Below, piece by piece: positions 17,271-57,592 of a stretch of 64,000 nt of DNA (position 1 is the first letter of the stretch; each line of letters starts with the position of its first letter). The stretch covers positions 1 to 64,000 of the forward strand of contig MU401650.1 of NCBI GenBank assembly GCA_022579005.1, read 5' to 3'. The notes under the pieces are model-generated. The model did not search any database. It worked only from the letters and a program-made list of their open reading frames with translations, and was not told the DNA's origin. The position numbers and the translations under genes are program-made. The stretch comes from Poronia punctata. Lineage: Eukaryota > Ascomycota > Sordariomycetes > Xylariales > Xylariaceae.

Positions 17271-19182
17271 AAAATGATTATAGCGTTTTATATACCTTGC
17301 ACTAAAATTAGTATAAGAAATATATTTATAAATCTAGCACTTTTTTGCTAGCTGTTGCATAATTAATAAAATTTAAATAAGCATATAAGTTATAAACTTA
17401 AAAATAGTATAAACTTTTATTAGTAGCTATTTTACTTTTTTTTATTTTATAGTAAATTAATATTTAATAGTTAATTATATTATATAATTATAATATAATT
17501 ATATTAATAATAGTAAAAAGGCTACGTAAATACTTAATAATAAACAAAAATTTTTATTATTTAATATATATTTTTTAACTAAATAAACTTAGTAATAAAG
17601 ACTATAATATTAGCTAAATTGCTTTAAATACTTAATAATAAAACTAGTTAAGCTATTTTTAATAGTTTTATTATTATTATTATTAGTTTTTTTGCTAATA
17701 TTAAAAAAATTAATTTTATTAAAATTTAGCTTTTTAATATTATTTAGTAATATTTCCTTATTTATATTACTATTTGCTTTATAAAAGCAAGCAGTTATAA
17801 TAGTGCTTTATTAACTAAAAGTAATAAAGCTAAATATAACAATACTTTATATAGCAAAATTAAAATAGCTTTATAAACTTAACTAGTAATATATAGCTAA
17901 AGTAAACTAACTTATTATAAAGCTGCCTTTTTTTACTTTTAGGCCTTTTTTTTTAAAGCTACTTACTTTTTTAAAGCTACTTATTTTAAAAGTAAAGCGT
18001 AACTGCTAACTTTTATATTATTAAAAATATAAAAATAAAAAATTTTTGTTAAAAAGCAAATAAAAAAGCGTGCTAAATATAAAGCTTTATTAAAATTAAA
18101 ATAGTAGTAATAAATTAAAAAGCATTATGCTGCTTATAATATAAAAACGTTAACTGCTGCTAAATAGCGTACTAGTAGCAAAAAGTAAAGTTAAAAAATA
18201 TATTTTATAATTAGCAATTTTAAATGCTAGCTTTTTTAAAGCAATACTTTTAGCATTATATATAGCTTTAGTTTTAGTTTTATTACTAAACTTAAACTAT
18301 AAAAATTAGTTAAGCTTAATAATAGTATATTTAAAGCTAGTTAGCATTATATTAATAAAATTAGCAACTTTTTTATATAACTAAACATTTTAAATAAAGT
18401 ATAAATTATAAAAGCTATATTTAAGCTATTTAATAGTTATTTTAAATAGTTTAAACTATTATAATATTAACTAAATATAATAAAGCAAAATATATTATAT
18501 AAAATAAAGTTTAAAAAAGCAAGTTAATATAAAAGCAAAAATACTAAAATAAAGCAAAGCAAAAATATAATAAATAAAAATATAATAATTTTACTTATAG
18601 CCTTGTTTAAAGCTAGTTTACTTTTAACTAAAAAAAATTGCTTTAAAAAAATGTTTTAAAAATGCTGCTTAATAAACTAAATATAAAGCTTTTTGCTATT
18701 TTTTTTATTAAACATTTTATTAACTATAAAAACTTAGTAGTTTGCTAAGCTATAAAATTTTTTAAATAAGTTAGCATTAATATGCTTTTTAAAAAACTTA
18801 ATAACTATATTATAGCTTTTAAAAGTAAAAATATTAACTTTAAGCTTAAAAGTAAAGCTATTAATTATTTTAAAAGTATAGCTTTAATAAAATTATTAGC
18901 ATTAATAATATAAAAAAAAATAGCTAAATATTAATATATATATTAGTAATAAGATTATGCTTTTAATTGCTATATTGCTTAAAAAACTGCTTATATAAGT
19001 TATATATAATTATTAAGTTTAGGTTAATATTAAAAAAGGCCTTTTTAATAGTAAAAAACACTATTTTATTAGTATTTAAAGTAATAAAATACTTATAAAA
19101 CTTAAACTTAAAAACTTTTTTTATTATATTATACTTTTTATTAGTAACTTATTTATAATTTTTAAAAAAGAAAAATATATAG

Positions 19183-19355
19183 TAATAGCACTAGGATCTT
19201 TAAATTTAAGAATAAAATATAAATAAATTAATTAACTAACTAAAATTAAAGGACCGAAGGTTTTTTATATTAAGATCTTAAGATCTAGTGCTTTTAAATT
19301 ATATAATATAATTTAGTTTAATTTATTTAGTAGTAAACTGTTTAGTTACTTATTA
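19183..19355. repeat. LTR-like repeat, left copy
   Basis: Contains TTAATTAACTAACTAAAATT, AGGACCGAAGG and AAGATCTAGTGCTTTTA. It is slightly more AT-converted in its second half than the right copy. Confidence 0.75.
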
Positions 19356-25300: not shown

Positions 25301-27854
25301 TTTATTTTTTAACTTTATATATTTTATAATAAAAAACGCTTTTTTTAATAATAATTATTTTAGTATAAAGTTATTATTTAGTACTTTTTTAATTATTAAA
25401 CTATAGTATACTATTTTAAATATTTTGCTTAGTTAATATAAGTTTTTTATTACGTATTTTATATATTAGTTTTATAATAAAAATAAAATATAATATTTTT
25501 AGTATATTTTATAGTACTTAAGTATAAAAAATACTAATTTAGTTATAGTTATTAGTTTAAAATTTAATAAATAATTATAATTGTTTTTATTTTTTACTTT
25601 ATTAAAAGTATATGCTTTACTATTTTTTTTATTTAATATTTTTTTTAAAAAAAAGTAGCTATTTTATTAAAGCTGTTTTTTTTAAGCTTTTTTATTTGCT
25701 TTATTTTATACTATATAAACTTTATTTTTAAATTTAAAGTTTTAAGTATATAGTTGCTTTACTTATTTATTAAATTAGCATTAAGGTTTAGTTTTTTTAA
25801 ACCTAGCTTATTTTTTAAGTTAATAACGTTAGTTTTAATTTTTGCTATTATTAAAATAGTAATTATTATATTAGTATTAGTTTTACTTTTATATTTTATT
25901 AGCTAGTTTGCTTTATTTTTAAAAGCTTTTATTATTATAGTTAAATTATTAAATATTTTTATGTTTTATATTATAGTTATTTTATTTTTAGTATATATTT
26001 TTGTTTTTTTTTTTAAAAGTTAGGTTTTAAAAACTAGTTAATATATTATAAATATAAGTTAAAGTTAAAATATAAGTAGCTTTAAATAGTTATTAATTAA
26101 TAAATATTAATATAATATTAATAACTATATATTTATAAGTTATAGCTTTTTTTTTAAATAAGCAAAAAATTAATTAATAATTATACTAGCTTTTAGTTAT
26201 ATAATAAGCTATTAAAAAAGTAAGTATATTATATTATAAATTTATATTAACTATTAAATAAAAGATTTTAATTTTATTATTTTAATATATTTAATTATTT
26301 TTATAGCTTAAGATTTAATATATATATTATTTTTTAGCTATTAAATACTAAATATATTTTAAAAATTATAAAGTGCTATAAAAGCGTTTACTAATAGTAT
26401 TTAAAATTGCTTATATAATTTAATAAAAACTTTATTATTATTTACTAGCATGCTTTTTTTTAGTTTTAAGCTATATTTTTTAAACTATTAAGCTTAAGCA
26501 TTGCTTTTTAAAAGTTAAAAAAAATCTTAGTAAATAATTATTACTTATACTAAGTTTTTAAAATATTTTTTAACGCTATTTTTAAATAATAAAACATTTT
26601 ACTAATAAATATTTAAGCTTACTATTATATAATTTTTTTATTTAAAAAATGCTTTTAAGTTAAAATTAAAAAATCTTACTTATTAAAGTTTTTACTTATA
26701 AAAAAAACCTTAATTATTTTAAATTTAATTTATTTAGTTTTTTTATAAAAAATAAAAAGTTTTTACTATAAAAGTTAATATTTATTTTATATATTTACTA
26801 TTATTTATTAATAAAGTGTTATTTGCTATTATTAACGTTTTTAAAGTGTTTATAAACTTTAAAGTATTTATAAGTTTTAAAATATTTAATATTTTAATAA
26901 GTTTATATAGTAGTAATTAAAATCTTAATACTAAAAATAGAAAATTATAAATATGTTGTTTTATAGGTGTTTTTATAAAAAATACCTTTTTTTTTAACTT
27001 TTTTATAGTTTTAGGTGCTAAAAATAAATAAAAACTTAAAAGTTTTAATTTTTTAAGTTTGTTATTTTTTAAGCTTAGGTTATACTTTTAAGCTAAATTT
27101 TTAAAATTTATATTTTTTTTATTAGTTAGTTTTTAGTTAAATTTTAAATATATTAAACCTTATTAAAAAGATTTATAAAAAGTTTAGTTTAAGTTTAAGT
27201 TTTTTAAATTTAGTTTTATATTTAAAAAAGCTTATAATTTTAAATATAAAAACTACTTATGCTAGCTTTTTAGTGCTATAAAAAAAGCTTATTTTTTTTT
27301 TACTTATATTAAAAAAAAATTTATTTTTAAATTTATAGCTTTTGCTATATAATTAAATATAAGTTTTTAAGCTTTTTTTATATTTGCTTATAATAGTATA
27401 AAAAAATAAAAATAGCTAATATTTTTAAACTATAAAAAGTATTAAGTAAGCAGCTTTTGCTTTTTTCTTTATATGTTTTTTAATAATATAAGTAATTTTT
27501 AAAAAAAAGGCTACGTATTTTTTAAAAGGTCTTTTTTTTAGTTTTTAAAGGTTTTTTTTATTAAAAAGGTTTTTTTTATTAATTTATAAAGGTTATTTTT
27601 ATTATAACGTTATATACGTTATAAACTTAAAAATAAAATTTTAAAAAGTAGTAATCTTTTAAAAAAGTAAAGGTAAAGTTTTAAATAATAAAAATTTATA
27701 ATAATTCTAAAAAAATAATAATAATAATAAATAATTTTATTTAATATTATTTAAATTTAAAATTTTTAGGTTTATATATTATAAAAATCCTGTCCCTTAT
27801 GCAATAGTATATAGTTATAATGCAGCTAATTAAGTAAACTTGCTAGCTACTATT

Positions 27855-28027
27855 TAATAGTACTAAAATCTTTAAATCTAAAAATAAAATATAAATAAAT
27901 TAATTAACTAACTAAAATCAAAGGACCAAAGGTCTTTTATATTAAGATTTTAAGATCTAGTGCTTCTAGATCATATAATATAATCTAGTTTAATCTATCT
28001 AGTAGTAGACTGTTTAGTTACTTATTA
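27855..28027. repeat. LTR-like repeat, right copy
   Basis: Partner of 19183-19355; retains C at many sites that are T in the left copy (for example AAGATCTAGTGCTTCTA, TCTATCTAGTAGTAGAC). Confidence 0.75.
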
Positions 28028-31000
28028 TATAGTTTAAGCTGCCTAAGTTAATAATAACTTTAATATTAGTATAAGTTACTTTTTTAAACGTATTTAAGTA
28101 TAGCTTTTTTATAGTTTTGTTTTTTTTTAACTTAATAAACTTAGCGCTTAAAGCAAAGGCTAAAGTAGCAGCACTTTTTATAATAGCTATTGTAACTATA
28201 AAAGTAGCAAGTATACTAGCTAAAACACTTTAGCTAAAAGTTATATTTTAGCTAAAAGTTGTACTTTGCTTATAGCTAAAAGTTAGGCTTAGGCTAAAAG
28301 TTAAGCTTATGCTAGCTATAATATTTTAGCAACCTTAAACAGTGCTTTTGCAGCTTTAAATATAATAAAGAAGTTAAATATAAAAAATTAATTAAAAATA
28401 AAAAATATAAGATTAAGGTATAAACAATAAAAAAATAAATTATAAAAGCATTTAACTTATAGTAGCACTAAATATAGTACGCTGTTTTTTTTAAAGCACG
28501 TTGCATTGCTAGCAAAATCTTTATAAAAAAAAGGAACCTTTTTAATTAAATATTATAAGCTTTAAATATTAAAATATTAGTAGTTATAAACGTAGTAAAG
28601 TTATATTAATTAAAATAAAAGGAAAAAATAATACTAAATAAGTTAGTTATTAATATTAAATGTTAATATTAAAAAAAGAAAATAAAAAGAATTTAAAATT
28701 AATAAGCAATAAAAAATATATATAAATAAGTAAAAATATGCATTGCTTTAATAAAAGCTTTATTATTAATGTAAAATAATTAATAAGTAATAAATAATGT
28801 AAACAAAGTTAAAAAGTTGCTTTAAAGTTTAATAAAACTAGCAAAGTTAGTATAAGTAAAGGTAATAAAGTAATATAAGTTATAAAGTACTTTTACTAGC
28901 TGCTAAAGCTTAAAAGGTATTTTTACCTTAAGCAAACATTTTTTAAGCTACTATACTTAATAGCTATACCTTTAAAAAAATTAGAAAATTAATTAAAAAG
29001 CTAAAGTATTTTTTTTTATTTTCTTTTTAATTAAAAGCACTTACTTTTTCTTTTAACGTTACGTTTACAAAATGCTGCAAATACGTATAGGCTTGCTACC
29101 TAAGTAAAAAGGTTAAAAACCTAAAAAGTAAGCAGGCTTTAAAACTAAAAAGTTATAAAATAAAAATAAAAACTTAATAAACTAAAAAAGCAAATTTAAT
29201 AATGCTTTGTTTAAAAATAATAAATTTAATAATAATAGTATGCTTGCAAGTGCAAGTAGTTTTTTTAAAACTTGCAAGCTTACTTTATAAAGTATTAAAA
29301 AAGTAAATAAAAAAGAAATAAAAAAAAAGTACTAAATAATCTTATAAGCAATATACTAATTAATATAAATAATAATAGTTAAAAAACTAATAAAAAACTA
29401 AATAAACTTTAAATCCTAATTTTTTACTTTTTATTATATATTTTATAATATTATTATATTTTGCTAATAACTAACTAATAAAAGGTATTAATATTAAATA
29501 TATTAGTAATAACGTATAAATAGTTAGTAAAAATAACTATACTATATAACTTTAATTTAAAAATATTATTAGCGCTGCTAACTATAATAAAAAGTTTAAT
29601 AAAGCTTTTAAGCTTAAACTTTTTAATAAAAAAGGCAATAAAGCGTTTAAAATTTCTTTTATTAATAAAAAAAAGCGTGCTTTTATTATTTTCCTAAAAC
29701 TAAAGGTATTATATTAGCTTTTATTTAAACAACCTTTTGCTATAAACAAGTTTGTTTTTATTTTTATAAAATAAAACAAGTTTATTAAAACGTTTTACTT
29801 TAAGCAATTTTTAGCAATATATATAAACTTATAAAAACTTAGCTAAACAAAATAAAGTATACTAAAAAAAAAACTATACTTACTAAAAAATAGTAATAGC
29901 AAGGTTTTTTAAAATATTTAAAAACTTTTAAAGCATTTATTAACTTTTTTTAGCTAATATTATAAGCGCTTGTTATTAATTAATATATATAAAGCTTAAG
30001 TTTTTTTAAAAGCTAAAAAATGCTTTTTATTACTTATTAACGCTATAAAAAAGTTTTTAAGCGTTTAGTAGCTAAAGCTTATAGTAAAAAAACTTAAAAG
30101 TATAAAAAAAAAAAAGCTACTACTAAAAATAATAATATAAACAATAAAAATAAACTGCTTACTTTTACTAAGTTAACCTACTTTAACCTTTTATTTTTAT
30201 TTAAAGCCTTTATAGCCTTTAATATAATAAAAAATATTTATTAAAGCTTTAGTTGCTTTATTAATTAATTTAAAAAGTTTTTTAAGTTTTAAGCTTAAAT
30301 AAGTTTTAACTATATATTATAAAGCATATATCTTTATATGCTAATTAAAAAATGTGCTATTATATATACTAGTAATAATATATATTATTAGTATATAAAT
30401 AGTTTTTATTACTGCTAGTTAATTAACAATAACTTTAAAAAAATAACTAACTTTTATATTAGTTACATTATTAGCTTTAAATAAAATCTTTATAAAAACT
30501 TTTATATTTAAAAAAGCAATAAAATACTAGCTTTTTAAATAAAGCTATATTTTAATAATATTTTTGTAGTAAATTATTTAATAGGCATTTAATTAAATTT
30601 ACTAATAACAAAAAATAAGTTTATTTTGCTTATTAACTTTGCGCTAACTTATATTTTTAAATTTTATATGTTCTTTTTTATACTAGTTTATAAAAACTAT
30701 ATTTTTAAAAAATATTATAAGCTTTTTAGTATGCTATAAGCTAGCTATAGCAAAAAAAATATATATTTAAAGTATATAACTTTTATTAATATAAAAATTA
30801 AAGCTTAGCAAGATATAGTTTACTATATTATAGTTATTTATTAAAACTATAATAAAAAAATTAAAAAGCATATAATACTTTTTTACTATATTTATTTTAT
30901 TAAAAGCAAGTTAAAGCTAAAATATTATAGCTATAAACTATTTAATTTATAAAATTAAGCAAATCTAAACGCTTGCTTTATAATATTTATTTTTATTTAA

Positions 31001-33419
31001 ACTTTTATTAATAAATTTAGTATATTTTTTAATTTTTATTAAAGTTTTATAAAATATTACGTTACTTTATATAGTTTATTAGCAAAAAATCGTTTTTGCT
31101 TTAGTAATATTATCTCTTTTATTTTTAAGCCTTATAGCTTAAACTTTAATAATATAATAAAAAAACTAAAAACTTTAATTAACTTTAATTAAAATATAAA
31201 AGTTAAAATTAAAAGTTAAAAAGTAGTTTTTTACGTTTAAATTATAGTTTTTATTAGTAATATGCTTTAATAAGCTAAAAATAGTAGTTTTAAAAGGCTT
31301 TAAGCCTTTAAATATTATTATAACTACTATATTAAATCTAGCTAAAAGCAAAATAAAATAAACTTTATTTGCTATAAGCAATATTATTACTAGCTAATAT
31401 ATATATAAAATAAAATAAAAAAGCTTAAAAGTATAAAGTAAAATAACTTTAGTTAATAATAAAAGCTTAATACTTTTTACTTTATACTAAAAATTATAGC
31501 ACTAGCGCTTAATATTATTTTTACTTGCTTATATAATATATATTATTTTAAGTATGCTAAACTTTTTAATTTAAAATATTTCCTTTTTTATAATAGTATT
31601 TTTATTGCTAATATAATAAATAATTATACTTTTTACTTATATATATTTTAATTTTTTTTTAATTTTTATTAACTTTAGTTTTTAAAGCATTATTTATTAA
31701 GTTATAAAATGTTTGCTTATGCTTTATAAAAGAAAATAATTCCCGTTTTTTTATATAGTTAGCTTTAGCCTAAATACTTTAAAAAAAACTTTTTAATATA
31801 TGCTAAAAACATTATAAATAATCTTATTAACTTTATTATTTTTATATTTATAGCTATAGCAAAAAGCAATATAGTTTTAATAAAAAACTTTATACTTTAA
31901 AATAACTTTAAAACTATAAAATAGCTAGTTTATGCTAGTTATAAAACTTTTAATAAGCTATGCTATATTATAATAATAGCATTTTTTTATACTAGTTTTA
32001 TAATATTAAACGCAATAATAAAAAAAAAAGCTAGTAGCTAAACTTAAAAACTTTTGTTTATAAAAAATACTATATGTTTAAATATATATATTACTTTTTA
32101 TTATTATAATTTTATAGCTAAATATACTATAGTAGTAAACTATAACGTATTAATAAGCAAAAACCTTTACTAGTAAGTTAAACTTTGCTAAGTAGCCTTA
32201 TATAATAGCATATAACTAGCTTTATAAAGTATATACTTTTAACTTGCAAATTAAAATAAACTAAAAAATTTTAGTTTTTTTTTTACTAATTTTACTTTTT
32301 TTATTTTTAAAAGCACTAAGTTAAAGCTATTATTATTTAGCATATAATTATAAGTATAACTAATATACGCTTTTAAATAGTTTAAATATTAAGTATATAA
32401 AACAAACTACTTAAATATTAAAAAGGTTTTTTTTACTAAACTAAATAATTAAATAACCTTTTGCTTTATACTTTATAATATAGTACAATATAATAACTTA
32501 AAACTTATAGCTAATATCTAGCACTTATATAAGCATTGCCTAACCTTGTTTAAAAAAGCACTAGCTTAATTTAATTAAAATAAACTAAAATAAAAGCTTT
32601 AAGCTACTAAAAACTAAAATAATTATAAGCTTAATATAGCTATTTTAGTAAATAAAAGCTATTAAAACCTTTTTATTATTAATAAAATCTTAATTAAAAA
32701 AATAAAAAAGCTAACATATATTGTTTAAAAAAAACAATTTTTACTTTTTTAAACTAAGTAAATATTTAAAGCTTTTTTATTAAAGTTAAAGCTTATATAC
32801 TATATAAACTATAAAAAACCTAACTATTAGCTTTTAGCTTATAAAAATTAAGCTATAGTTTAATACGCTTATAAATATGCTTTTAATTAATTATAAATAG
32901 CTAAAAAGTAAATATAAGCATTTTAGCATTTTTATATAAGCATTTAACTTTACTATTAACTAGTATAAAAAAGTAAAGCTATTATAACCTAACTAATATT
33001 TATTTAATAGTAAAAAAAATAAACGTTTTATTTTTAGCAAAAAATAAACTATAGTTTATTATAAATACAAATATAGCTATATTAATTATATTTTTTTTTA
33101 ACGTTTATAGTAAACATTATATTTTTTTATTATTACGCCCTTTTAACGCACTAAAAAAGTTAATTATATTTTTAGCTTAAAAATAATATAAAAAAATAAA
33201 AATGCTACTATAATAATTAATATTATAATACGTATTAAACTTTATAATGTTTTTAATATTAATATGTTTTAAGCAATTAAGCTATTTTTACTTTATATTA
33301 TTAACGTTTTAAATATTAGTTATATATATAATAACTAAAACATTATAATGTTTTAAGTTATATATATAGTATATATATAATATAATCTTTATTAGCAGCT
33401 TTAATTTAACATTTATAAT

Positions 33420-33670
33420 AGTGCTTATTATAATGCTTTTTTATTTAAAGTATATATTTTACTTTAATCTACTTGCATTAATTAATTTTATTTATTTAAT
33501 ATTAAAAATAGTACTTATTTATTACAATATTTTTATTTTATTGTTTAAAGTATACATTTTATTTAATTTGCTTATATTAATTAATCTTATTTATTTAATA
33601 TTAAAAATAGTACCTATTTATTATAATGCTTTTATTTTGCTATTTTAAAGTACGCATTTTATTTACTATT
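33420..33670. repeat. 100-bp tandem repeat
   Basis: The marker TTTAAAG recurs at 33444, 33544 and 33644, an exact 100-base period over two full units plus partial ends. Because 100 is not a multiple of three, the hydrophobic ORF running through it is not evidence for a protein. Confidence 0.8.
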
Positions 33671-34144
33671 TAATTAGTTATATTATTATTGCTAACTAAT
33701 AATTCTAACAGTTCTTAAAATAATTAATTTAACAGATTTTTTAACTTAAACCTTTTGCTTATAGTAAGTAAATATACCTTTTTTCTTACCTAGGTTTTCT
33801 AAGCTAATATTTAATATACTAAATTTATTTAACCTTAATTATATTTATTATACGCTAGTTATAATATTAGTCTTCTTTGCATTTATAGCTTAAAAAAGTA
33901 AAAATAAAAGTAAAAATAAAAATAAAAGCAATAAAAGTAAAAATAAAAATAAAAGCAATAAAATAAAAGTAAAAATAAATCTTAGTATATAAAAAAGCAA
34001 AAAAAAAGCTAAAATAGTAGCAGTAATTAAAAAGCAGTTAACTAAATATTATTAAAACAAATATAATATATTATTAATTAAGCTAGACTGTAAATAAAAT
34101 ATCTGCTAGTAAAGCAGCAGACCTATAGCATAACAGTTTTAAGC

Positions 34145-40508: not shown

Positions 40509-41396
40509 ATGGCCATGTGGTTAACAAAGATGACGACCATGCCGTTTCATGACAAGGAAGAGGATAATTCACTGCTCGCCGCCGTCGATGGCCAGAGTAC
40601 AGAAGAGCACGGCATTAAACCTCGGTCGTCTCGAGCAGCAAGTCGAGAGTGCCGTCACAACAAGTACCTATTATTTGGGTTATCATTATCTGTACTATTA
40701 AACATCCTCTTAATCTCCACCGTCTTCTACACATCATCGTCAACCGAAAAGGAACCGCCGTCGAAATACGCAGGCCTCCAAAGAGACCGAGAAGAGCCCT
40801 ACGTCATTGTAACCGATTATGGGTCAGAAAACACCACACTGACGGACGAGCTTTGGTATGGGATCAACGTCGACAGTGCCGTAGTAGCGCTGTCAGACGA
40901 CTGGGCTCGCGAGCACGGTCTTCGAACCGCCCAGAGATTCCCGTGGGATCAGTCGAAAGGCGTCTATATTCTGCACGGATATCACAACTTGCACTGTCTA
41001 AAGATCATATACATCTCCCTGAGCGAGTATCGGCGCGGAGTGCCGCAGTCGCGTAACTGGCATCACATCAGCCATTGCTTCGACGGGTTGCGACGGCAGA
41101 TCATCTGCGACGCCGACGACACACCCCGAGCGACAGAACACCGGGCCGAAGTTGTGAGCGGCCTCCTTCAGCATCGTCAATGTCGTAGCTGGGAAGCGCT
41201 CGAGGAGTTTGCGAAGCAGCATACTGGATGCTATAAGCGACCTGACAACCCAAACGACGGCAAGCCCATCATTGACAGGTTTAAACATTGTCCGCCAGAT
41301 AGTGGCTATGTCATCAAGGACAACTATGTTAACCCAGACGAGTTTTTGGTTGGGTTGCCGGAAGAATCGTTGCAGATTCCAGAGGACTATCAGTAG
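40509..41396 (+). CDS. UstYa-family oxidase (DUF3328), copy 1
   Basis: Single-exon, 295-aa type II membrane protein: basic N-terminal cytosolic tail, one membrane helix at about residues 53-74, then a lumenal domain. It carries both HxxHC motifs that define the UstYa/DUF3328 family: HNLHC (159-163) and HISHC (186-190), the latter followed by FDGLRRQIICDAD as is usual. In ustiloxin, phomopsin, asperipin and related fungal RiPP pathways, such proteins carry out the oxidative cyclisation or other oxidation of the core peptide in the secretory pathway. The gene converges on the repeat-containing precursor gene, with 226 bases between the stops, which strongly suggests a RiPP role. Several ATGs lie close together (40509, 40515, 40530); the first is used. 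Confidence 0.93.
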   Translation: MAMWLTKMTTMPFHDKEEDNSLLAAVDGQSTEEHGIKPRSSRAASRECRHNKYLLFGLSLSVLLNILLISTVFYTSSSTEKEPPSKYAGLQRDREEPYVIVTDYGSENTTLTDELWYGINVDSAVVALSDDWAREHGLRTAQRFPWDQSKGVYILHGYHNLHCLKIIYISLSEYRRGVPQSRNWHHISHCFDGLRRQIICDADDTPRATEHRAEVVSGLLQHRQCRSWEALEEFAKQHTGCYKRPDNPNDGKPIIDRFKHCPPDSGYVIKDNYVNPDEFLVGLPEESLQIPEDYQ

Positions 41397-41622
41397 AGCA
41401 TTAAAAGTAATCAATGAACTGCGTTTTTAGCAATCGTCTTTCGAAGCAGCAGTCTATCCTGACAGGTACACGTTGTAGTACATATGGCAATCAATAGGAG
41501 CCGACCGAAGTTTGAATTAACAGTTGAAGAATTTGTTTCATTTCATAGATGCAGTATACACATGAACAGCCGACCAACTTTTCTTTACACCTTCTCCCCT
41601 AACGTGAGCCTAATACAATCTT

Positions 41623-41906
41623 TCAAAACCCTTCAGAAACTTGGACGTCGTCCCTCCTAAAGCCTTCTGAAACTTGAACGCTTTCCGTCTCGTCACGCCT
41701 GAAGCCTTCGGAAATGTGGACGTCTCCCTCATCACGTCTGAATCCTTCCGAAACTTGGACGCTTTCTGTCCCATCGCGTCTGAATCCCTCTGAAACTTGG
41801 ACACTTTCCGTCCCATCACGTCTGAAGCCTTCGGAAATGTGGACATCCTCTCCATCACGACGGAACCCTTCAGAGATGTGTACATCCCCATCGTCACGGG
41901 TGATCA
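41623..41906 (-). repeat. In-frame 39/42-bp tandem repeats of the precursor
   Basis: Six units of 13 or 14 codons plus a shorter last unit. The DNA is well conserved in the SEGFRRD part and variable in length in the spacer, always by whole codons, which argues for selection on the reading frame. Confidence 0.88.
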
Positions 41907-42032
41907 CTGTTTGTAGTTGTTAGCCCGAGTTTCCGAGACAGGAACGACTTATAAAAACTGACTTTTTGACGGGATGGCGGCAGCTATAGCCATGGAGCCA
42001 CAGAGGGCTGTGAGAATCACGGAGGAACGCAT
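41623..42032 (-). CDS. Putative dikaritin-type RiPP precursor with seven core repeats
   Basis: Two exons, 42032-41963 and 41906-41623, encode 117 aa. The 56-base intron has GTCAGT donor, perfect GCTAAC branch site and CAG acceptor. Exon 1 is a typical signal peptide (MRSSVILTALCGS.. ending AAAIPSK). Exon 2 is almost entirely repeats, each ending SEGFRR followed by an acidic spacer (DG, DGTES, DEG, DETES). There are seven copies in all; the last ends with SEGF and the stop codon. Cores are of two kinds: VHISEGF (copies 1, 2, 5) and VQVSEGF (copies 3, 4, 6, 7). The Arg-Arg pair after each copy is a kexin (Kex2) cleavage site. Signal peptide, repeated core, dibasic sites and flanking UstYa genes are the hallmarks of fungal dikaritin precursors (UstA, PhomA, GigA). 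Cores lack Tyr, so Phe or His would be the aromatic partner, much as Phe ends the victorin core. Product unknown. Confidence 0.88.
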
Positions 42033-43043
42033 CGTGGTCTTGTGTCGCTTCTCTAGTCTAATGCTTAGGCGGACTGACTAAGTGAGGTTTGGGATGATGA
42101 TGATGTTGTTGTTACAGTTGTAGTATACTTTGTACTAATTGCTTTCGATCAAATTACTATATGGACTACCGGAGACAGTGCCCTACATCGGAGATCAGGA
42201 AGTCTACATGTACATATAGGCCCGACAAAGCCTGTAACCCCTGGGCCATGACCGCAAGATGGAAAAGATTGTATGGTTTATCACTCGCTAGTCACCGAGA
42301 TGGAGGGCCAATAGTCCTACACAGCGTGGACAAACCCTAGATAGCGGACCGATCGATTCGGTATGCTCTTGTAGATATTGCTACATTTTAGGCAGTCAGC
42401 AAATCTGCACTCCGATTTTGCTTTGCATTGCCACTCTGGCACTTGCGATTGGCAGCAGCAATGCATGTTTAATCGGGTTTTGCCTGCTGACGTTGCAATA
42501 ATGCCGTGAGATCAACTCCTTGGAAAAATCCTGTAGGGTGACATGGCGTAGTATGCGGGGCATCGGCGGAGGGGGGGAGGGAGGAGAAGCCATTAAACTT
42601 TTTAGGGCTGCTTTTCTTGTAATCGGCGTCTTACTGTTCTCCTAGTCGGGATCTGCAATCTCACCTACTCTTTCGGACTAGAACGCCGGAGGGCGGTCTA
42701 GGCGTCGTCTTCCGGACATCTTATTGGAGTAGATTAGCAACGTAGGCGTAGAATCTTAGTCCCCTTTCACCTTAGGTTGTTTTATGGTTAAAATCAAAGC
42801 TTGTCGATGATATTCCACCGAGCAAGTACGAGAATGTTGGGCAGCATGTGCGTCAATCTATTCCATACATCGAGTCAGTCTGTACCTGCATACATCGGGC
42901 ACCCCTGACTTGACTGGGTGGACACTGGAGGGCAATGTTTGCCTGCATATTATCTGGAATATATTCGGCGCGTTCCAGATACCAACCCGTGAAAGCCACA
43001 ACAGTTAAAGTTTGGATATTCAACAATCTCTGCGTTAGCTATT
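42033..43043. promoter_or_regulatory. Divergent promoter region, precursor / second UstYa
   Basis: About 1 kb between the divergently transcribed precursor and second UstYa gene; both promoters must lie here, allowing co-regulation. Short ORFs inside show no motif. Confidence 0.5.
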
Positions 43044-43848
43044 ATGACTAACCAGGAAAGGCGGACGACTCGTGGCACGTATAAGCCGCTCGGCCAAGAC
43101 CCGAAGGATATCGAAGTTGCAGGGGGATCTTCCCTTCGACAGGATGGTCACGTGAAAAGCCACAGACAGGCCAGCCATGTCCAATCCTTCATTGCCGTTA
43201 TAGCAACCGTCATCGCAGGAACAGCAGGGTTCATTTTTGGCGTCCTATTCGCTGAATCCCATCCAAGGCATGGCCACCTTCGAGATGTAGCACCGCGGAT
43301 CTCCCTACCGGCAATACAGCGAATATTCACTTTCCCGTCGCCCTTTTCGCAGAAGCCGCCGGGACCGGGAAATGCTTCGGAGCCGATCTGGGATGCTCTG
43401 GTTCCGAGTAAGTTCATTGACCCCGAACGCAGCGCCAAAAGAAACTCTATTAATCGACCTCTGCTCAGACGGGCTCGGATATTTCCGTGACACTTCGATA
43501 TCGCCCGGTATCTCTATCCCCACCGTCTTCCACCAGCTTCATTGTCTGTACATCATTCGACGGGCATATTACTCCCGCGCTTCAACTATCGAGGAATTTG
43601 ATTTTGGGAAAAACAGGACTGTTCATGTAGCCCATTGTTTCGACTACCTACAGCAGGGCCTGACATGCTCTGCCGACACGACGGTTGAGTCGGCTGCGGG
43701 GAACGAGAATGGGTTCTTGGGGAGTGGCTTTGGACGTCAATGTAATGATTTTGATGCTTTGAAGGATTTTGTCGAGGAGAGGAGGGTCTTTAATGCGACC
43801 GGGTTCTTGGCTGCAGGGCTGGACCATGGAAAAGCTCATGTTGGGTAG
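43044..43848 (+). CDS. UstYa-family oxidase (DUF3328), copy 2
   Basis: 247 aa from exons 43044-43407 and 43469-43848; the 61-base intron restores the family segment WDALVPNGLGYF. Layout is as in UstYa/UstYb: polar N-terminus, single membrane helix at about residues 49-70, lumenal domain with HQLHC (143-147) and HVAHC (174-178) followed by FDYLQQGLTCSAD. It differs strongly from copy 1 in sequence and exon structure, so the two are an old pair (UstYa/UstYb-like division of labour) rather than a recent duplication. Divergent from the precursor gene. Expected role is oxidation or macrocyclisation of the kexin-released core peptide in Golgi or vesicles. Confidence 0.93.
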
Positions 43849-46131: not shown

Positions 46132-47496
46132 TGAGCAGTCTCTACTCTGATCCCGGCTGCTAAAGTTGTTCGTAGAACCCGATCAGTCGGTGCCAATTCT
46201 TCGTGGGAAGGTAAGGGGAGGATATTGTGGTTGCTTTTCCCATGGGCGACACGGGGGCATATTTACGTGATGCAAGTAGCGGCAACTAAGTCGAGAAGAA
46301 AATCGCTTGCTGGCCAGATCAAGGTCAGCACATCCGTAGCTGTATCTTTCCCAGGAAACGGGCTATGTGAGATGTATGTGAATGGGATGAGTCCCAAGAA
46401 CCTATATTTCTTCCACCGTGGCTTCCTTCAAAGCTTTGAAATCATATACCCAGGTACATGTAGGTATGCACTTACATGTAACCTGACCGACATGGTTGTA
46501 TAGGCCTAGGTACCGAGTACATATACCCGCTGCCATCTGCCACTTAATTCGGTGTGGTTGTAAGTATGTACGTACATATATCCTGAACTTAATTTGCAAT
46601 TGAAGGAACGTCTGTATATGGAATCCATCTATTAGAATGTAACATACATGCATCGCGTCTTGATATATATATATATATACTTACCTAGGTACCTACACTA
46701 TAGAGATCCATGTACCTAGCAACCACACGTGATCATGAGGACTTTCTCTTCATGATATAGCCGAGCTACAATATTGACAACGTGGTATGGCCATCGAATG
46801 GTTTTTTGCTTCCACCTCAAGTACCATAAGCGTGAGGTATCTATCCAAGTACCATAGTCACCTGATGACATCCACCCGATTAACATAAAAGAGAGCACCG
46901 GGGGAGAGCGTCATATACTTAGGAACTGCACTAACGTGCAACATTCAACATATCACAGGGACATGCGGACATCTGTACATAGGTACCCAGATATAAGTTT
47001 TATCTTCCTGCTGACGGGATACCAGTACACTTACTAGCCCACAGACCTACCAGAGTTCTATGACCCCTTGGGACAGTGGGACAACGTCTCTGGCCTCATT
47101 TCATATACCTAGGCGGCCCGGAAACCGCCGCTCGCCAACATTTCACTCGAGGCCAACTTTACAGCCCAGGTAACCTGAACATTCTTGCGGTCAAGCAAGC
47201 TACACATACAGCGGATGCACAAGTGACAAAAGTAAGTTGACGCTGTTATATCAGACCTTTCTCCGTGGGCGTCTCTCCGTGGGCGTCCCTGCGTCCGACC
47301 ACATACCTTCATAGTGTTTACCTATCTGATTTCGCGATTGGCCCGACCAAAGGTGTGTACTTAGGGCTTTGCTGGGCCAAAGTATCTTTCACCAATCCAG
47401 AGCCCCAACGCCAGTTTCCTTCACCGCGCAACACATACATGTCCCCTCAGAACTGTTAATGGTTTGCTTATCAACACCAAATCTCAGCTCACCTCT
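46132..47496. other. Intergenic, no gene recognised
   Basis: Contains a TA dinucleotide run at about 46661-46680 next to TAGGTACC-type repeats. ORFs are short and motif-free. Promoters of both divergent flanking genes lie here. Confidence 0.5.
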
Positions 47497-49743
47497 ATGG
47501 CAATGTCTACGCCTCGAAAACGCGATAGCACCAAGAGTACCTTGGCGATTGGTATCGATTTCGGCACTACGTAAGTACAGTACAGCATTTCCTGCCCTTT
47601 CTAACCTGTTGTCACTCTGGTCCATTTCTGATTTCGATATCTCGCATAGTTACAGCGGTGCATCGTGGCTCATTTGCAAGCATGGGGTGCCGGCCGGAGA
47701 GCCTGAAGTGGTAACGCATTGGCTCTCTGCCTTATCGCGAAATAATGATCGAACAAAAGTACCGTCCAAGCTTTATTACGAGAAGGATTCCGGAGAGGTG
47801 AAATGGGGATACAATATCCCAACCGATGTCGAGCCTATCGAGTGGTTCAAGCTACTACTCCTTGACGAAAAGGATCTCCCCAAGGAGCTCAAGAATTCGT
47901 CACATATTGAAAAGGCCCGTGAAATGATGAACGCTGCCAACAAGACGCCGGTCGACTTGGTCTCTGACTATCTGAAGGCGCTCTGGGACCATGTCATCTC
48001 CGAAATCAAGGACGCCAAAGGGACAGGTCTTGTCAACGGTACGCAGTTCCACGTCGCACTGTCGGTCCCTGCGATTTGGAATGATCACGCCCGTGGAAAG
48101 ATGCGTGAAGCCGCAAAACGTGCCGGCATATTGGACAAGCGCATTGTAGGCGATACGACCCTCGACTTTATTTCCGAGCCCGAAGCAGCTGCTCTGGCAA
48201 CCCTTCCTGAGCTAGACAACCGTGACGATTTGTCCCCCGGCGACTGTTTCGTTGTCCTAGACGCGGGCGGTGGAACAGTGTAAGTCCTCTCGCGTCTCGA
48301 ACCAAACATTACTAACTTATGCGGGTCTATAGGGACATCATCAGTTACAAGGTCGACGAATTGGAGCCAATGGTCATATCTGAATGCGTCGAGGGAGAGG
48401 GTAATATTACCCATATGTAACACTTTACTGAGCTAATACATGACGTCTCACTAGGTGCCCTTTGCGGGGCGACATTCGTCGACAATGCATTTGCTTCGTT
48501 CATACAAAACAAAGTTGGCCCTCAATCTTGGAGGAGAATGGAAACCACTGCAATCCGGAAGATGATGAACAATGAGGTAAGTAGTTCATGGCTGCTGTCT
48601 TTGAACATAAGCGGGGCATGAGTTACTAAGAGGTAGTAGTGGGAACACGGCATCAAGAAAGACTTCGACGGTAGCCAGACGAAATATACAATCGATCTCC
48701 CGAAGAAGAACAAACGTGGACAGCTTAATGTGCTAGGGTATGTAGGCTCCATGTCAACTTCCATGGTCAACTTCTTACCTTTATTGTTACGTGCAGAAGC
48801 GACATCACAGGTATTTTCGACGGCACCATATCAGAGATTTGTGATTTGCTGCAAAAGCAGCTCGATGGCATCGAGTCTCGTACGCAAGTGAACCCAAAGG
48901 TAAAGGTTATGCCACTCTGTCTTTAGACCAACTTACTTATCTGTATGCCCGTCTACCTAGTTTGTCATTCTTGTTGGTGGTTTCGGCCGCTGCCAATTTT
49001 TGTTCAAATCTCTCCAACAACGGTTTAGGGACAAGACAGACATCCTTCAGGCGCGCAGTGACAAACCGTGAGTATTTTTTACTTTTTTCTTAAATTTCAA
49101 GATCATAGGAAGGCTGAATCGCTGTAATAGCTGGTCTGCAATCTGTCGTGGAGCCACACTTTCGGGTGCAATGGGCCGTGGTTTGATTAAAGACGTTGTT
49201 CAAGTCAAGTCAAGAGTCGCACGAATGAGCTACGGCTGGACCTTCAGTACGGTATTCGACGAGAATATACACAACGCACGAGACAAGCGCTGGAACGACG
49301 TCGAGCATATCTGGGAAGCCGACGATCAAATGGAGTGGGCTATCACAAGGGTAAGAAAGAAGTAACGCTTACGTTATAGATTATCATTCTAACGGAGGCG
49401 ACAGGGGCAAGATGTTTCGACAGTCAAACCAGAGGAATATCCGTACTACGCACCCTTTAGTATAAAGGAGCATGGAAGAAAAGAAATCGTCCAAGAAATA
49501 TGCACTAGCAAGGCAGCATATCCGTCTTCGAGGAAAGATGATACAGTCGATATTCTTTCTTCCTACTCCTTTCTAACTCCTCGACCAGTAGAAACTCTCC
49601 CAATCGAAAAGAAATACGTTAAGCAGGCGCGAGTATGGAACCATAAACTCAGGGTTCGTGTCTCTGGTGCTGCACTTGACATTACCGTCGTCGACGGAGA
49701 TGAAGAAGTAACATCACATTCTGTCTCAATCGATACAAAATAA
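47497..49743 (+). CDS. Hsp70-like ATPase (HSPA12-type), nine exons
   Basis: Actin-fold ATPase related to Hsp70. Nine exons join in frame to 586 aa: 47497-47570, 47650-48279, 48333-48400, 48455-48576, 48640-48737, 48797-48899, 48961-49067, 49131-49350 and 49405-49743; every junction is GT-AG. Nucleotide-binding signatures are in order: phosphate-1 IGIDFGTTYSG near residue 20, ISEPEAAALATL mid-protein, phosphate-2 VLDAGGGTVD, and adenosine motif ILVGGFGRCQFL. The C-terminal part is short and lacks a canonical Hsp70 peptide-binding domain, as in the HSPA12 group, which is strongly expanded in filamentous fungi. Client and role are unknown; some members are linked to heterokaryon incompatibility or stress only by association. 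Start: two in-frame ATGs (47497, 47503); the first is used. Confidence 0.88.
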
Positions 49744-50244: not shown

Positions 50245-51315
50245 TTATACAGCAACTCTCCTATTCGCGGCAAATGTCTCCGACTTGTAAACACCCGCGC
50301 GGGCGTAAACATCCTTGTATTTCTGCACAACATAGTCCTCCACACTGACGGGGGCATACTTCTCATCCTCTTCCCTCTGGCGGCACTTCTCGATACACTT
50401 GATGATGAAGTCGGGGTTGCCGTTATAGTTGAACGGGATGCTGTATCTCTCCTCGCCGGATCGGTTGATGACGCGATGGACATTCGACACATACATGTCA
50501 TTTGTCCACTGCTCGAAGAGGTTGCCCATGTTGACGACATACGCGCCCTCGACAGGAGGAGCCGAGTACCAATCCTTCGCCTCGTCATCCCAGACCTCGA
50601 GACCGGCGACGTCGCCCTGAAGGAGCAGTGTGATGACACCAAAGTCGCGGTGGGCGCCGATGCCGCGCTGGAGAGCGTGCGCATCAGGGGGCTGGGGAGG
50701 GTAGTGGAGCATCTTGTAGAAGCACATGGGGTCGGAGCAGAACTCGTCGAAGAAGTCGGGTTCGTAACCCAGGCTCATTGCCGTGGCGCGCATGACTTCC
50801 TCTGTGAGATTCACGATGCGGTTCAGGTAGTCCATGCATGTCTCGCGGAAGGGGGCGCCGAGTGACTCGGGCCAGACGTTGGGGCCGTGGGCGAACTTCT
50901 CGGCTACGACTTGTGGGTGGTCCTTTGGTAAGTCGCGCGAGACGTAGTAGCCTTCTTTCAGGTCCGGGACTGTGTTGGCTTCGATCATTTGGCCGTGCAT
51001 GACTTCGTAGCCGCGGTTGTATTTGTTCTGGTTGGCTTTATTAGTCGTTTATTCACTGTTTCTTGCACGACGTGGAAAACTTACGAGAGACTTGTCGAGC
51101 TTCATCTTCTCCTCCTTGGGAAGAGCGAAGAACTCTTTCGAGATCTTGAACATCTCCTTCTGTAGACTCAGGGGAATGTCATGATTGACAATCTGGAAAA
51201 AGCCTTGGGTCATGCAAGCTTCTCGGATCTGTTTGGCGCAGTGCTCCATGCGAGCCTTGTCGCCGGACAAGAAGTCGGAGAAGTCGATGACCGGGGGTAC
51301 TTTGTTGGAAGGCAT
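50245..51315 (-). CDS. 2-oxoglutarate/Fe(II) dioxygenase, isopenicillin-N-synthase-like
   Basis: Cytosolic non-haem iron oxygenase of 337 aa. Exons 51315-51085 and 51027-50245; removing the 57-base intron gives the conserved KSLNKYNRGYE junction. The N-terminal DIOX_N region (PPVIDFSDFL..QGFFQIVNHDIP) is followed by the double-stranded beta-helix. Iron ligands are H203 and D205 (GAHRDFG) and H261 (NVHRV); the 2-oxoglutarate carboxylate would bind R271 and a Ser in RYSIPF. Related fungal proteins include Isp7-like enzymes and secondary-metabolite hydroxylases. Substrate cannot be predicted. Lies between the Hsp70-like gene and an MFS transporter, a context compatible with small-molecule metabolism. 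Confidence 0.92.
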
Positions 51316-53195: not shown

Positions 53196-54957
53196 CTATT
53201 CTATCTCTTCCTCAACGGTCTTTTTGTGAAACTTGGATCGAGCCCTAATCTGCGGCCCGTAGTGATAAAACAACCAGGGTAACGGCGCCAAAGCCACAGC
53301 GACAAACCCCAGCACCGACGTCGCCCATGCCGGCTTGAGATTGTCGTACATCTGCCGTGAGAAAAGTGGAAAAGCAGCTCCAAAGAGCGAACGCAAGATG
53401 GCGTTAGCAGCCAATGCACTCGCAGAGAATTTTCCGTAGCAGTCGATCAAATACGACGTGATACCCAGGAACAAGAACACAAAGCCGATCCCAAAAGGGA
53501 TACCAGCCACAATGCAACTGATCCAGTGGATCGACGGTGTCGCTGTCCAGGCAAACCAGAACAACCCTATAGGGATGAGGGGCGAGAGGACGACGAGGTG
53601 TGGAAGTCGTGCCTCGGGGCGTGGTTGCCCCATCTTATTTACGTAATGAGTGTAAATGCGATTCACATAAGGCGAGAAGGCAGTAGCGATGGCCATACCC
53701 ACTCCGATGCCTACAAAAATATTATGTAAGTAAAACGATCGGCCACGAACATCGGTGTGTGTTTTTGTGTGTGTGTGTGTGTGCGTGTGTGCATGTTTGA
53801 ATACGTCGAACCTCGCCCCGGCCGGGACGGAAAATACCCGTCTTACTTACCCAAGAAGGAAAGGCCGGACAGGCCGGTTGGCCAGTGTCTGGTCTCCTGA
53901 AAGACGTACGGATACGCAGTAAAGTCCAGGTACAGAATGCCGTAGACAAATGCCATGTACAGGGACAGGAGAAACAGGATAGGCTCCGTGAAGAACATGA
54001 CGCATGGGCGGGTCAGGTTGACCTTGGCCATGACCTTGAAGTCCTGCGACGGGGGTTTCAACCCCAGCCTCGCTGCCTTTTCCTGCAATAGCTTTGGCCG
54101 GTACGTCTCAGGTAGGAAGATGAACATGGCAATGTAGATCGTCGAACTGGTAATGAGTACCAGCCAATAGTTCCTTTACTGGCGTCAGCATAGATATTTC
54201 ATATACCTGGCGAGGGGAGGATTTACACACCATCTCCATGTTGTATACTGCGAAATAAACCCGCCTACAATGGGCGATACCACCGGTCCGAGAAAACTCG
54301 CAGCGGTGAAGAGGGCGATGGGGACAGACCGGTGACTAGCAGGCCAAAGGTCTGTGAGGGAACCACCTGAGTTGGTGACTGATGGCGTGAAAAGCGTTAG
54401 CGAGTAACTGATGCAATGATTTCATAGTGAGGTGATAGAGATGCAGGGGTTAAACACGGTAGAGCAAGTTAATAGGGTCGTTCCTAGTGTAGATGGGGCG
54501 TGTAGGTAAAGCTGGCAGGTACCGTACCTGTAGGCGATCCAAAGAATCCACAGATGAATCGAAAGACCAAAAGGGCTGCTATATTCGGAGCAAGTGCGCA
54601 GCCAAGATTGAACAGAACAAACACTAGCAAGGTGGCGCGATAGATTGGGCTCCTCCCGTACATCTCGGATAGCGGAGCAAATATCAAGGGTCCTGTGGCG
54701 AAGCCGAGCAAGAACGTGGAGACGCCCAAGGTGGACACGACACGGGAGCAGCCAAAGTCGGCTGTAATGCTTGGGATGGCGGCAGTATGGATGGACGAGC
54801 AAAACGCAATCGTGGCTGTCATCCAGCACACGATCACTGTACACATCCACCTTCTAGCAGACGAGAAGTGCTGGGGATCCTCATCGTGAGATAGTGTAAG
54901 CTCCTCAAAGGTAAGGGGAGGTGAAGGCGCTTCGGGCTGTTTCTCGTCGGCGCTCAT
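53196..54957 (-). CDS. MFS transporter, DHA1 (drug:H+ / polyamine-type)
   Basis: Twelve-helix plasma-membrane exporter of 467 aa. Exons 54957-54528, 54366-54231, 54173-53851 and 53710-53196 join in frame through GT-AG introns. The N-terminal cytosolic tail ends at ARRWMCTVIVCW. The helix 2-3 loop has the DHA1 motif PLSEMYGRSP, the fourth-helix region reads FICGFFGSPTG, helix 5 carries GPVVSPIVGGF, and the central loop has PETYRPKLL, all as in the Flu1/polyamine subgroup. Intron 3 contains a CA/GT microsatellite (about 53756-53792). Likely exports small molecules or drugs. It is divergent from the amine oxidase gene across a 0.8-kb region, so the two may be co-regulated. Confidence 0.92.
53756..53792. 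repeat. GT/CA microsatellite within MFS intron 3
   Basis: Run of GT dinucleotides (plus strand) with two interruptions, lying wholly in intron 3 of the transporter gene. Confidence 0.9.
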
Positions 54958-55740
54958 CGTGACACGCGTATATGCACGATTGCTTTAGAATGACAAGGTT
55001 GGATGTGAAATCATATGGAATAGGTAGAACAACAAATATGAGAGAAGAGTTCCGGCTTAACTCCAGACGATGGATTCGACAGGGCTGATTGATTCGTTAC
55101 GACTAATTTCCAGATTAGGATAGTCTATGAATTTTCCAAGGCAGAGTGGCAGGTTTTGTTGAGAAAACCAACAATCCGCTTACCCTTTCGATTCTAACTC
55201 TCTTTCCTTTTTATTGGACAGTGGGAAACGGATTCATCCAAGATGTCTTCGAGTAAAATGTACTAAAGCTTGTATCCTTTATAAAGCATACTTTGTGCTG
55301 ACGAAGGCAAAAAGGAGATGTGATCGACGGTCGAAGACGACGTGCTTTTCCTTGTAATTGAATTGTTTACGTAAATCGAGCTGGCTTACATCCCCTGAGG
55401 GCCTTAGGGCGCTCTTGGCAAGGATGGTCGATCTGTGGATAGACTGTGGGGTGCACATCACGACATCATCTACAAATCTGTAACATCAGAGGTCAATCTG
55501 TAAATCTTTCTCAATCTCTTCACGTACCTGTTGTGAAAAGTTGGTCAGACGGCAGTTGATTTTCAGCTTCCTCTTCTCGGACTGTCGGTTGGTAATCACA
55601 TTTCCAAGGACCGAAATGTTGCCGCTTGACTTGCCCAACCGATTCTGGGCCGGGTATATATGTGAATTTACAAATCGGCCCCCCGACGTTTGTCTAAACG
55701 ATGACCGAATACCACGTTTTCCCTCCTATTCATTTCCATC
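54958..55740. promoter_or_regulatory. Divergent promoter region, MFS / amine oxidase
   Basis: About 780 bases between divergent transporter and amine oxidase. A TATATA box-like sequence lies near 55655, some 85 bases before the amine oxidase ATG. Regulators unknown. Confidence 0.45.
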
Positions 55741-57592
55741 ATGCATGTCGGTATCGTTGGAGCAGGCATTTCCGGGCTATACACAGCCTTGTTGTTACGC
55801 CGTGAAGGTCATGATGTGACCATATTCGAAGCCTCCGACAGGGTAGGCGGGCGTATTTATACTCACAGATTCACACCACAATCCAAATCAGCCGACGTCT
55901 ATTTCGAGGCCGGGGCTATGCGTATCCCCCGGTCCTCTTTGCATTCGGCCGTCTTTGACCTGATCCGCTACCTGAACACGCACGGTGCGGCCGAGAACAG
56001 GATCGAGCTCATACCCTATATCCTCGATCACGAGAACAACCGGTCCTTCTTCCAGGGCAGAAAGGGCGCTTTCCAGGATGTTGGTTGGGCGTCCCATGCC
56101 GACCTCCCAGCCGAATTCAGAGGGAAGACTGCCCAAGAGCTGCTCGGGAGTGTGGTACTTCCCTGGCTTACCATGCTGCGTCAAGATTTCGATACCGGAT
56201 TCCAAAAGGTACTCAAGTATGACGAGTATTCCTTCCGCGCATATCTTCGTGCCATCGTGGGTTGGCCTCACGAAGTAATCGACTTTGTCGAGCTACTCTG
56301 CTCCCAGACAAACCAGTATGAACTCAGTTTTACCGAGATCATCATGCAAAATCTGGATTTCGACACCAAAGACGTAAGTGAACACAACTGTCAACACGGG
56401 ACGGGACGACTTTCCCTCTCACTGTGTCCATGTATTTGCTAACACTGTATTGCAACTGGCCATCAGTGGGTGACGGTCCAAGACGGCATGTCACGGGTAA
56501 CCCAAAGCGCCGCTTCGTTGCTAGGTCCCAAGAATGTCCGGCTCAACTCTAGAATAGACAGGATCGCCCACCTGGACGACGGGAGGGTCGAGCTGCGTGC
56601 TCAGGGCCTCCATCACACCTATACGGCCGTCTTTGACTCGATCGTTGTCGCGACGCCACCCTCAGCCCTTCATGCTATCGTCGAGCGGCCCAAATGGTCT
56701 TTCTTGAAGGAACAGTCCATTCGCGGGATGCACTACGAACCCCTGTACAAGATCGGCCTGCACTTCCGCACTCGTTTTTGGGAAAAGTCGATAGTGAACC
56801 CGTGTTTCGGAGGCCAGAGCACGACAGACCTGCGCTTCCGCTGGATCGTCTTCCCCTCCAACGACGTCGGAAGCAACGGCTCGGGCGTCTTGCTTCTCTA
56901 TAGTTGGATGAGCGACGCAACTAAATGGACAGGGCTGTCCCGCTCCGAGCGCATCAAGATCTGCTTGCATGATCTGAGTAAATACTTTGCCGACGAACCC
57001 GAGGTCGACATATATGAGCAATTCATCGAAGCTTTCGACATCATGTGGGCAGCCGAGTTCTGCGGCGGTGATGGTAAGTCTTCCTTTGCCCACGTTCCTG
57101 AATAATAATAACCAGTCACTAATGGTGAAAACAGTACGTGCATACCACTGAGCCCTCGCTTTCTTCCCCATGTCCTTCTGGAAGAGCCGTGCTAATCTGA
57201 TTTGTTTTGAAGGCCATGTTTTTGCCCGGGCAATTCTCCCGCTATTTCGAGATCGCAAGAAAACGCGAAGGCAACATTCACTTCGCGGGGGAGCACTTGT
57301 CGAAGCATCATACCTGGGTAAGCAACAATGACAACCTCAGCACCCCTTTCGCTTCTGACTGCCAAGGCTAACAAAGAGGGAAAAGATCGCCGGTGCTATC
57401 GATTCGGCGCTCCGAACCACGGCAGAAATTTTACGACCAGGGGAAACCAAGCCCCTCCCCGCTCTCGGCCGCGAATTCTTGACACCGGCTGATAAGCGGC
57501 GGATGGCCAAGACGGACATCAGCTCTCGGCGCTTCAAGGCCTGCATCATTCCAAGTCATATGAACGTGCAATATGTGAAGGCGTATTCATGA
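55741..57592 (+). CDS. FAD-dependent amine oxidase / L-amino-acid oxidase, one exon junction unresolved
   Basis: Flavin oxidase that would oxidise an amine or amino acid to an imine with release of H2O2. Visible exons: 55741-56373, 56467 to about 57073, 57213-57317 and 57386-57592. The N-terminus is the FAD dinucleotide motif VGAGISGLYTALLL with EASDRVGGRIYTHR. The C-terminus has MFLPGQF and the second FAD motif HFAGEHLSKHHTW joined by a clean intron to IAGAIDSALRTT. Exons 1-2 join in phase 0 at DTKD/WVTVQDG. Between exon 2 and exon 3 the obvious donor (57074) leaves one extra base, so direct joining to the acceptor at 57213 is out of frame. Either a very short extra exon, an unusual splice site, or a one-base mutation is present. 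No signal peptide. The gene may therefore be intact or recently disabled. Confidence 0.82.

Follow-up and report, generated by a model that had tools for sequence, protein, structure and literature searches.

What does a small fungal gene that spells out nearly the same peptide seven times produce when it lies between two membrane-anchored oxidases? The gene in question occupies the middle of positions 40,509 to 43,848 of the window, by which we mean the whole 64,000-nucleotide stretch analysed here (contig MU401650.1, positions 1 to 64,000, of Poronia punctata, a xylariaceous dung fungus). We read the trio, with a probability of roughly 0.87, as a UstYa-modified, dikaritin-type locus for a ribosomally synthesised and post-translationally modified peptide (RiPP), with its transcription and product predicted. 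Its parts are the following.

41623..42032, minus strand: RiPP precursor gene, a Kex2-processed repeat protein (KEP) of 117 residues, predicted from the sequence, with ATG at 42032 and stop at 41623
42032-41963 and 41906-41623, minus strand: precursor exons 1 and 2
41907..41962, minus strand: precursor intron of 56 bp, GT..AG, likewise predicted
41967..42032, minus strand: predicted endoplasmic reticulum signal peptide region MRSSVILTALCGSMAIAAAIPS, recognised by eye
41626..41883, minus strand: seven cores and the six RR Kex2-type sites between them, coordinates taken by hand from the coding sequence
41883-41863, 41844-41824 and 41721-41701, minus strand: the three cores VHISEGF
41802-41782, 41760-41740, 41679-41659 and 41646-41626, minus strand: the four cores VQVSEGF
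40539..41396, plus strand: UstYa-1 (DUF3328/PF11807), membrane-anchored oxidase, single exon, 285 residues
43044..43848, plus strand: UstYa-2 (DUF3328/PF11807), oxidase, 247 residues, exons 43044-43407 and 43469-43848, intron 43408-43468
42033..43043, no strand: intergenic, likely shared promoter, about 1 kb from the start codon of the precursor to that of UstYa-2, the two genes being divergent

The repeat is coding and is maintained as such. Among 21 copy pairs, which are pooled and not independent of one another, all nucleotide differences in the codons for S, E, G and F are synonymous (proportion of synonymous differences, pS, 0.893; of nonsynonymous differences, pN, 0), and for all seven core residues together pS is 0.657 and pN 0.071, the latter exceeding zero on account of two positions at which the core types differ. 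All seven third positions of the core codons vary, whereas only one of the 14 sites at codon positions one and two does (Fisher P = 7e-5), and this concentration of the variation at third positions fixes the reading frame. Within the precursor gene, purifying selection acts on the frame of the repeat, as the comparison of its copies shows. A detector of in-frame repeats bounded by dibasic sites, designed with the repeat already known, gives the precursor locus a score of 6, compared with 1 in 499 and 2 in one of 500 dinucleotide shuffles of the locus and with 0 or 1 in 18 other blocks of the window; the repeat exceeds chance. It is very improbable that the repeat in this open reading frame (ORF) arose by chance or has decayed and yields no product: such an origin would fit the lack of a public protein model and of any homologue in the protein search described below, and it is opposed by the silent variation in the SEGF codons (pS 0.89, pN 0), by the intact frame and splice sites, and by shuffles that never match the repeat.

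The predicted protein starts with MRSSVILTALCGSMAIAAA, in which a short basic n-region, a hydrophobic core and A-x-A can be made out by eye, and continues from the predicted signal peptide through IPSKMITR to seven cores with acidic linkers. RR follows six of the cores. The preliminary description had spoken of seven kexin-bounded repeats, of which the seven cores stand and the complete bounding does not, the first core following a single arginine (ITR-D) instead of a dibasic site and the seventh running into the stop codon. Its coordinates and its precursor splice, 41962-41907, were reproduced (GT..AG is present in the sequence and the splice is predicted), and a CTAAC branch-like site is visible by eye in the intron. 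The core consensus, V(H/Q)(I/V)SEGF, is without tyrosine and without tryptophan and has a C-terminal phenylalanine. Since the two core types are mostly paired with two linker types, the gene predicts two related peptides. The precursor is missing from the protein database, though the adjoining UstYa-2 is annotated, and was probably overlooked by public gene prediction.

Both flanking proteins belong to the DUF3328 family. UstYa-1 scores 81 bits against PF11807 (cut-off 25) and carries the motifs HNLHC and HISHC; UstYa-2 reaches 77 bits with its second exon alone (cut-off 25), carries HQLHC and HVAHC, and matches GGS20DRAFT_567584 in the public annotation of P. punctata with 100% identity. A single hydrophobic helix lies close to the N terminus of each protein. 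Pfam search and motif scan thus recover what had been described before, a precursor flanked on each side by a UstYa protein that has a membrane helix and a pair of HxxHC motifs; only the start given for UstYa-1 has to be moved, as a database model (P0068) and the alignment favour 40539 over the earlier in-frame ATG at 40509. The same description had named conservation of HxxHC in orthologues as a test, and both motifs are kept in 63 of 67 database homologues of UstYa-2 and, among the matches listed for UstYa-1 (the best 120 of 158 homologues, on which all UstYa-1 counts rest), in 116 of 120. The eight homologues with fewer than two motifs comprise four of UstYa-2, which are short (138-174 residues) and look truncated, and four of UstYa-1 (209-296 residues) that lack one or both; no fused repeats were seen by eye in 13 mostly longer UstYa homologues.

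The AlphaFold models, which are of low confidence, place the two motifs on successive helices, at residues 147-166 and 174-194 in UstYa-1 (global pLDDT, the predicted local distance difference test, 59; motif blocks 48-83) and at 140-156 and 171-183 in UstYa-2 (global pLDDT 64; motif blocks 66-78). With UstYa-2 alone as the query, no match was found among solved structures. CctR, the DUF3328 hydroxylase of cyclochlorotine, is reported to be a binuclear-copper membrane enzyme that requires the His and Cys of HxxHC, and it shares with our two proteins the arrangement HxxHC(x)nHxxHC and a single transmembrane helix, and its motifs lie on two neighbouring helices, as our models tentatively predict for UstYa-1 and UstYa-2; it differs in hydroxylating a nonribosomal cyclic peptide and in working as a homodimer (PMC12435403).

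Does the trio belong among the dikaritins? The original definition of 2016 (Ding et al., as recounted in PMC12048977) comprised five genes, with a tyrosinase, a methyltransferase, and a transporter/peptidase. A six-frame Pfam survey of about 36-51 kb of the window (E ≤ 0.01; short exons may escape it) found neither these nor a cytochrome P450, so that the locus falls outside that definition, even with a weak match to the major facilitator superfamily (MFS) at 53.2 kb, and the earlier remark that an obvious methyltransferase or P450 is absent is borne out. The requirement for a tyrosinase, methyltransferase, transporter or peptidase was later dropped, the current definition being a KEP with UstYa (PMC12048977), and because of this relaxation we claim membership only under the current definition. 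KEPs are recognised by at least three tandem repeats of at least 8 residues between KR, KK, RK or RR (PMC7329392); the precursor has seven cores, six RR sites, and SEGF motifs spaced 11-14 residues apart, with a DUF3328 gene directly on each side. The survey that set this threshold counted 7878 KEPs in 1461 genomes, 1758 of them with DUF3328 neighbours, and found that DUF3328 genes peak adjoining KEP genes (PMC7329392). The elements that define a locus of Kex2-repeat precursor plus UstYa are present in the genome, which supports the dikaritin-type reading first put forward in the preliminary description.

Similar loci recur within the 45-Mb assembly. We examined 15 further regions around UstYa hits, 16 with the window, and five of the further ones hold a Kex2-type repeat precursor, making 6 of 16 by a detector that would miss precursors with fewer or more varied repeats. 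All six precursors lie head-to-head with the nearest Pfam-level UstYa hit (in the window, UstYa-2), and at one of them, C29, an additional weak UstYa-like frame lies between the two. The recurrence of this arrangement at five other loci is in keeping with a shared promoter. It also bears on the proposal of a linear signalling peptide, a KEP similar to a pheromone or to POI2, with UstYa proteins that act elsewhere or only hydroxylate it. Some KEPs are indeed signals, and 78% of KEPs in the survey have no nearby DUF3328 gene (PMC7329392); the core here is free of tyrosine and tryptophan, and UstYa-1 is 64% identical to its counterpart in Aspergillus avenaceus and 55% to that in Penicillium verhagenii, which may suggest a maintained function more than a fast-changing toxin enzyme. 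However, DUF3328 neighbours were reported at no alpha-factor KEPs and at only three fungal-pheromone KEPs (PMC7329392), two UstYa genes directly flank this precursor, and each of the six KEPs found here is head-to-head with a UstYa gene. We regard the signalling proposal as improbable.

The oxidase pair extends far beyond this fungus. Named homologues come largely from Xylariales, and also from Hypocreales, Diaporthales, Eurotiales, and lichen fungi, orders that we take from the genus names. Of the 67 UstYa-2 hits, 31 lie on a contig whose length agrees to the base with that of a contig bearing one of the listed UstYa-1 matches (30 of 66 once the pair in the window is set aside), and such equal-length pairs occur in Xylariales, Hypocreales and Eurotiales, including Stachybotrys, Aspergillus and Penicillium. 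Equal contig size here stands in for the same contig, with gene distances gauged through tags alone; because the lengths agree to the base and none is repeated within either list, both genes very probably share contigs. Among UstYa-2 hits up to P0056 on contigs longer than 20 kb, two cut-offs picked after the list was seen, 30 of 48 are paired, the window's pair included. Across the 31 pairs, the divergence of UstYa-1 is correlated with that of UstYa-2 (Mantel r 0.59, 0/5000 permutations). In the four pairs that carry two positional tags, the tags suggest room for one gene between the oxidases, matching the precursor's place here: N7447_005192/005194 and N7483_004445/004447 leave out one number, and Uu.00g010960/010980 and ANO14919_067110/067130 do so if tags advance in steps of ten. 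Protein numbers of the Joint Genome Institute (JGI), which are not strictly positional, were left out of this count; three such pairs differ by 2 (F5B19DRAFT, F5Y04DRAFT, BDV19DRAFT), and in the others the gap is 3, 8 or larger, reaching many thousands. Hypomontagnella monticulosa has the pair as well (P0024/P0119). A survey of Hypoxylaceae and Xylaria hypoxylon reports an ustiloxin-like RiPP cluster in Hypomontagnella among other taxa, with its own warning that the number of overlooked RiPPs cannot be judged (PMC8403587).

These tags also bear on the possibility that the trio is the centre of a larger cluster. Beyond the trio, the Pfam matches of the surveyed region are a fungal rhodopsin-type membrane protein, a carboxylesterase fragment, HSP70, and part of a 2-oxoglutarate-Fe(II) (2OG-Fe(II)) oxygenase. 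The HSP70-like ORF (47330-48283, plus strand) scores 18.2 bits, just below the cut-off of 20.6; the oxygenase lies at 50245-51048 on the minus strand, with an upstream exon to 51333 placed by eye, and is followed by an MFS-like fragment (53196-53846, minus strand; a weak match below cut-off) and a flavin amine oxidase (55705-57105, plus strand). The oxygenase, MFS-like and amine oxidase genes stand in a row and may form a separate or extended metabolic cluster. A cluster joining them to the trio would draw on their biosynthetic type and their position 6-14 kb downstream; but a coiled-coil ORF (no Pfam match above cut-off) and the HSP70-like ORF intervene, and in relatives the tags imply only two UstYa genes and room for one more. 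We consider it unlikely, though less so than a signalling role. As the survey revealed no methyltransferase, P450 or tyrosinase, the minimal locus is the three genes, with an extension to 57 kb possible and unsupported.

Several observations weigh against the dikaritin-type reading. The window core lacks tyrosine, the usual crosslink residue, and also tryptophan, while all five other precursors of the genome carry one or the other in their repeats. In the survey, 65.6% of DUF3328-linked repeats contain tyrosine (PMC7329392); about a third do not, so a tyrosine-free core is not unprecedented. The six-frame survey showed no domain of a transporter, peptidase or tyrosinase in the neighbourhood of the trio, and both AlphaFold models are of low confidence (pLDDT 59 and 64). 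For 36 of the 67 UstYa-2 hits, no contig of equal length occurs among the UstYa-1 matches listed, and species history explains the correlated divergence of the oxidases as well as co-function does. Finally, no precursor homologue was found at E ≤ 0.01 among 5.8 billion proteins (7839 word-sharing candidates), which means that cores diverge fast or that the small gene is often unannotated. DNA pattern scans for the loci of relatives returned 44 stretches from viral contigs and 17 from genome contigs, none from a relative. The precursor has so far been seen in P. punctata sequence only, and the conserved element demonstrated is the oxidase pair.

Comparison with characterised systems constrains what the dikaritin-type locus could make. 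Ustiloxin B and phomopsin share with it a secretory precursor with repeats and more than one UstYa homologue (two for ustiloxin, five for phomopsin; PMC7329392), but have YAIG, YVIG or YVIP cores and a Tyr-Ile ether for which a tyrosinase is needed; the window lacks a YxI core, and its survey showed no tyrosinase. The precursor of asperipin-2a is also a KEP, and a homologue of UstYa cyclises it (PMC7329392), but asperipin-2a has one UstYa gene and is bicyclic via two internal Tyr side-chain links (PMC7329392, PMC9233826). Victorin, counted among the dikaritins, also has a multi-core precursor that is probably cut by Kex2 (PMC10512285), and in it the side chain of a C-terminal phenylalanine is joined to an internal leucine (PMC9233826). 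Its core sequence differs from the window's, and it is chlorinated and extensively modified.

By analogy with these relatives, the signal peptide would take the precursor into the secretory pathway, where Kex2 would cleave after each RR and a Kex1-type carboxypeptidase would then remove the arginines, leaving linear D(G/E)..V(H/Q)(I/V)SEGF peptides with a free C-terminal phenylalanine. UstYa-1 and UstYa-2 would sit in Golgi or endosomal membranes with their putative binuclear-copper HxxHC(x)nHxxHC sites on the lumenal side and oxidise the core. Processing, location, copper chemistry and cyclisation are all inferred from characterised relatives. A core without tyrosine cannot form the Tyr-Ile ether found in ustiloxin and phomopsin, and because victorin is the nearest precedent, our first guess is a link from the phenylalanine side chain to an upstream aliphatic (Val or Ile) or His residue, which would give two related macrocyclic peptides. 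This crosslink is the least certain step and is offered tentatively, at less than even odds; hydroxylation and desaturation, both known for the UstYa family, are the alternatives. More doubtful still is the wider idea that UstYa-1 and UstYa-2 form an ancient conserved Pezizomycotina module, perhaps a heterodimer, that crosslinks Tyr/Trp-free cores via a C-terminal phenylalanine with no other enzyme.

The type of system is known; the peptide sequence and the widely shared oxidase pair look new. The preliminary description held that the core matches no known product, and this stands to the extent that 'SEGF' occurs nowhere in the main texts of the fungal RiPP literature searched (supplementary tables being outside that search) and no precursor homologue appears among proteins. 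A conserved UstYa-1/UstYa-2 pair was not found described in the literature searched. The distinguishing marks are the Tyr/Trp-free core ending in phenylalanine, the three-gene set, and the conserved oxidase pair. Against 838 KEP types counted, reports of dikaritins numbered only five by 2022 (PMC10512285). A small two-oxidase system with such a core can tell whether UstYa proteins crosslink through phenylalanine and whether the pair suffices, and the conserved pair offers a way to look for this pathway in 26 further named genomes.

The five further precursors of the genome lie at L021 2120-2800 (minus strand), L022 1674-2408 (minus strand), L018 5687-6235 (plus strand), L026 6995-7315 (plus strand) and L012 5184-5837 (plus strand). 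Their repeats are as follows.

C5: AYREGAWG-KR, 11 copies
C350: SGDAVPWNAVGSE-KR
C37: CNAPKCAKDTAYAII-KR
C29: QFVGTYVPAG..KR
C44: VPWKEGV/VLWSEGV, with the weakest detector score (3), kept since the repeats are plain by eye

The precursor at L018 5687-6235 consists of five CN...CAKD(T/A)AYAII-KR units, which combine Tyr-Ala-Ile, as in the ustiloxin B core, with a two-Cys segment. Antisense frames over the C5 precursor score 7 and 5 in the detector. Frames in L019 (two) and L025 (one), with a detector score of 3, were dropped as low-complexity or basic-rich, and the C44 precursor, the candidate for a paralogue of the window's, gave a match too weak to be called homologous (E 0.26, 33%). In positions 1-5000 and 17000-34000 of the window, the sequence switches abruptly between AT-rich blocks (9-23% GC) and gene islands (40-56% GC); the AT-rich blocks look like isochores of the type left by repeat-induced point mutation (RIP), and the longer one is about 6 kb away from the trio.

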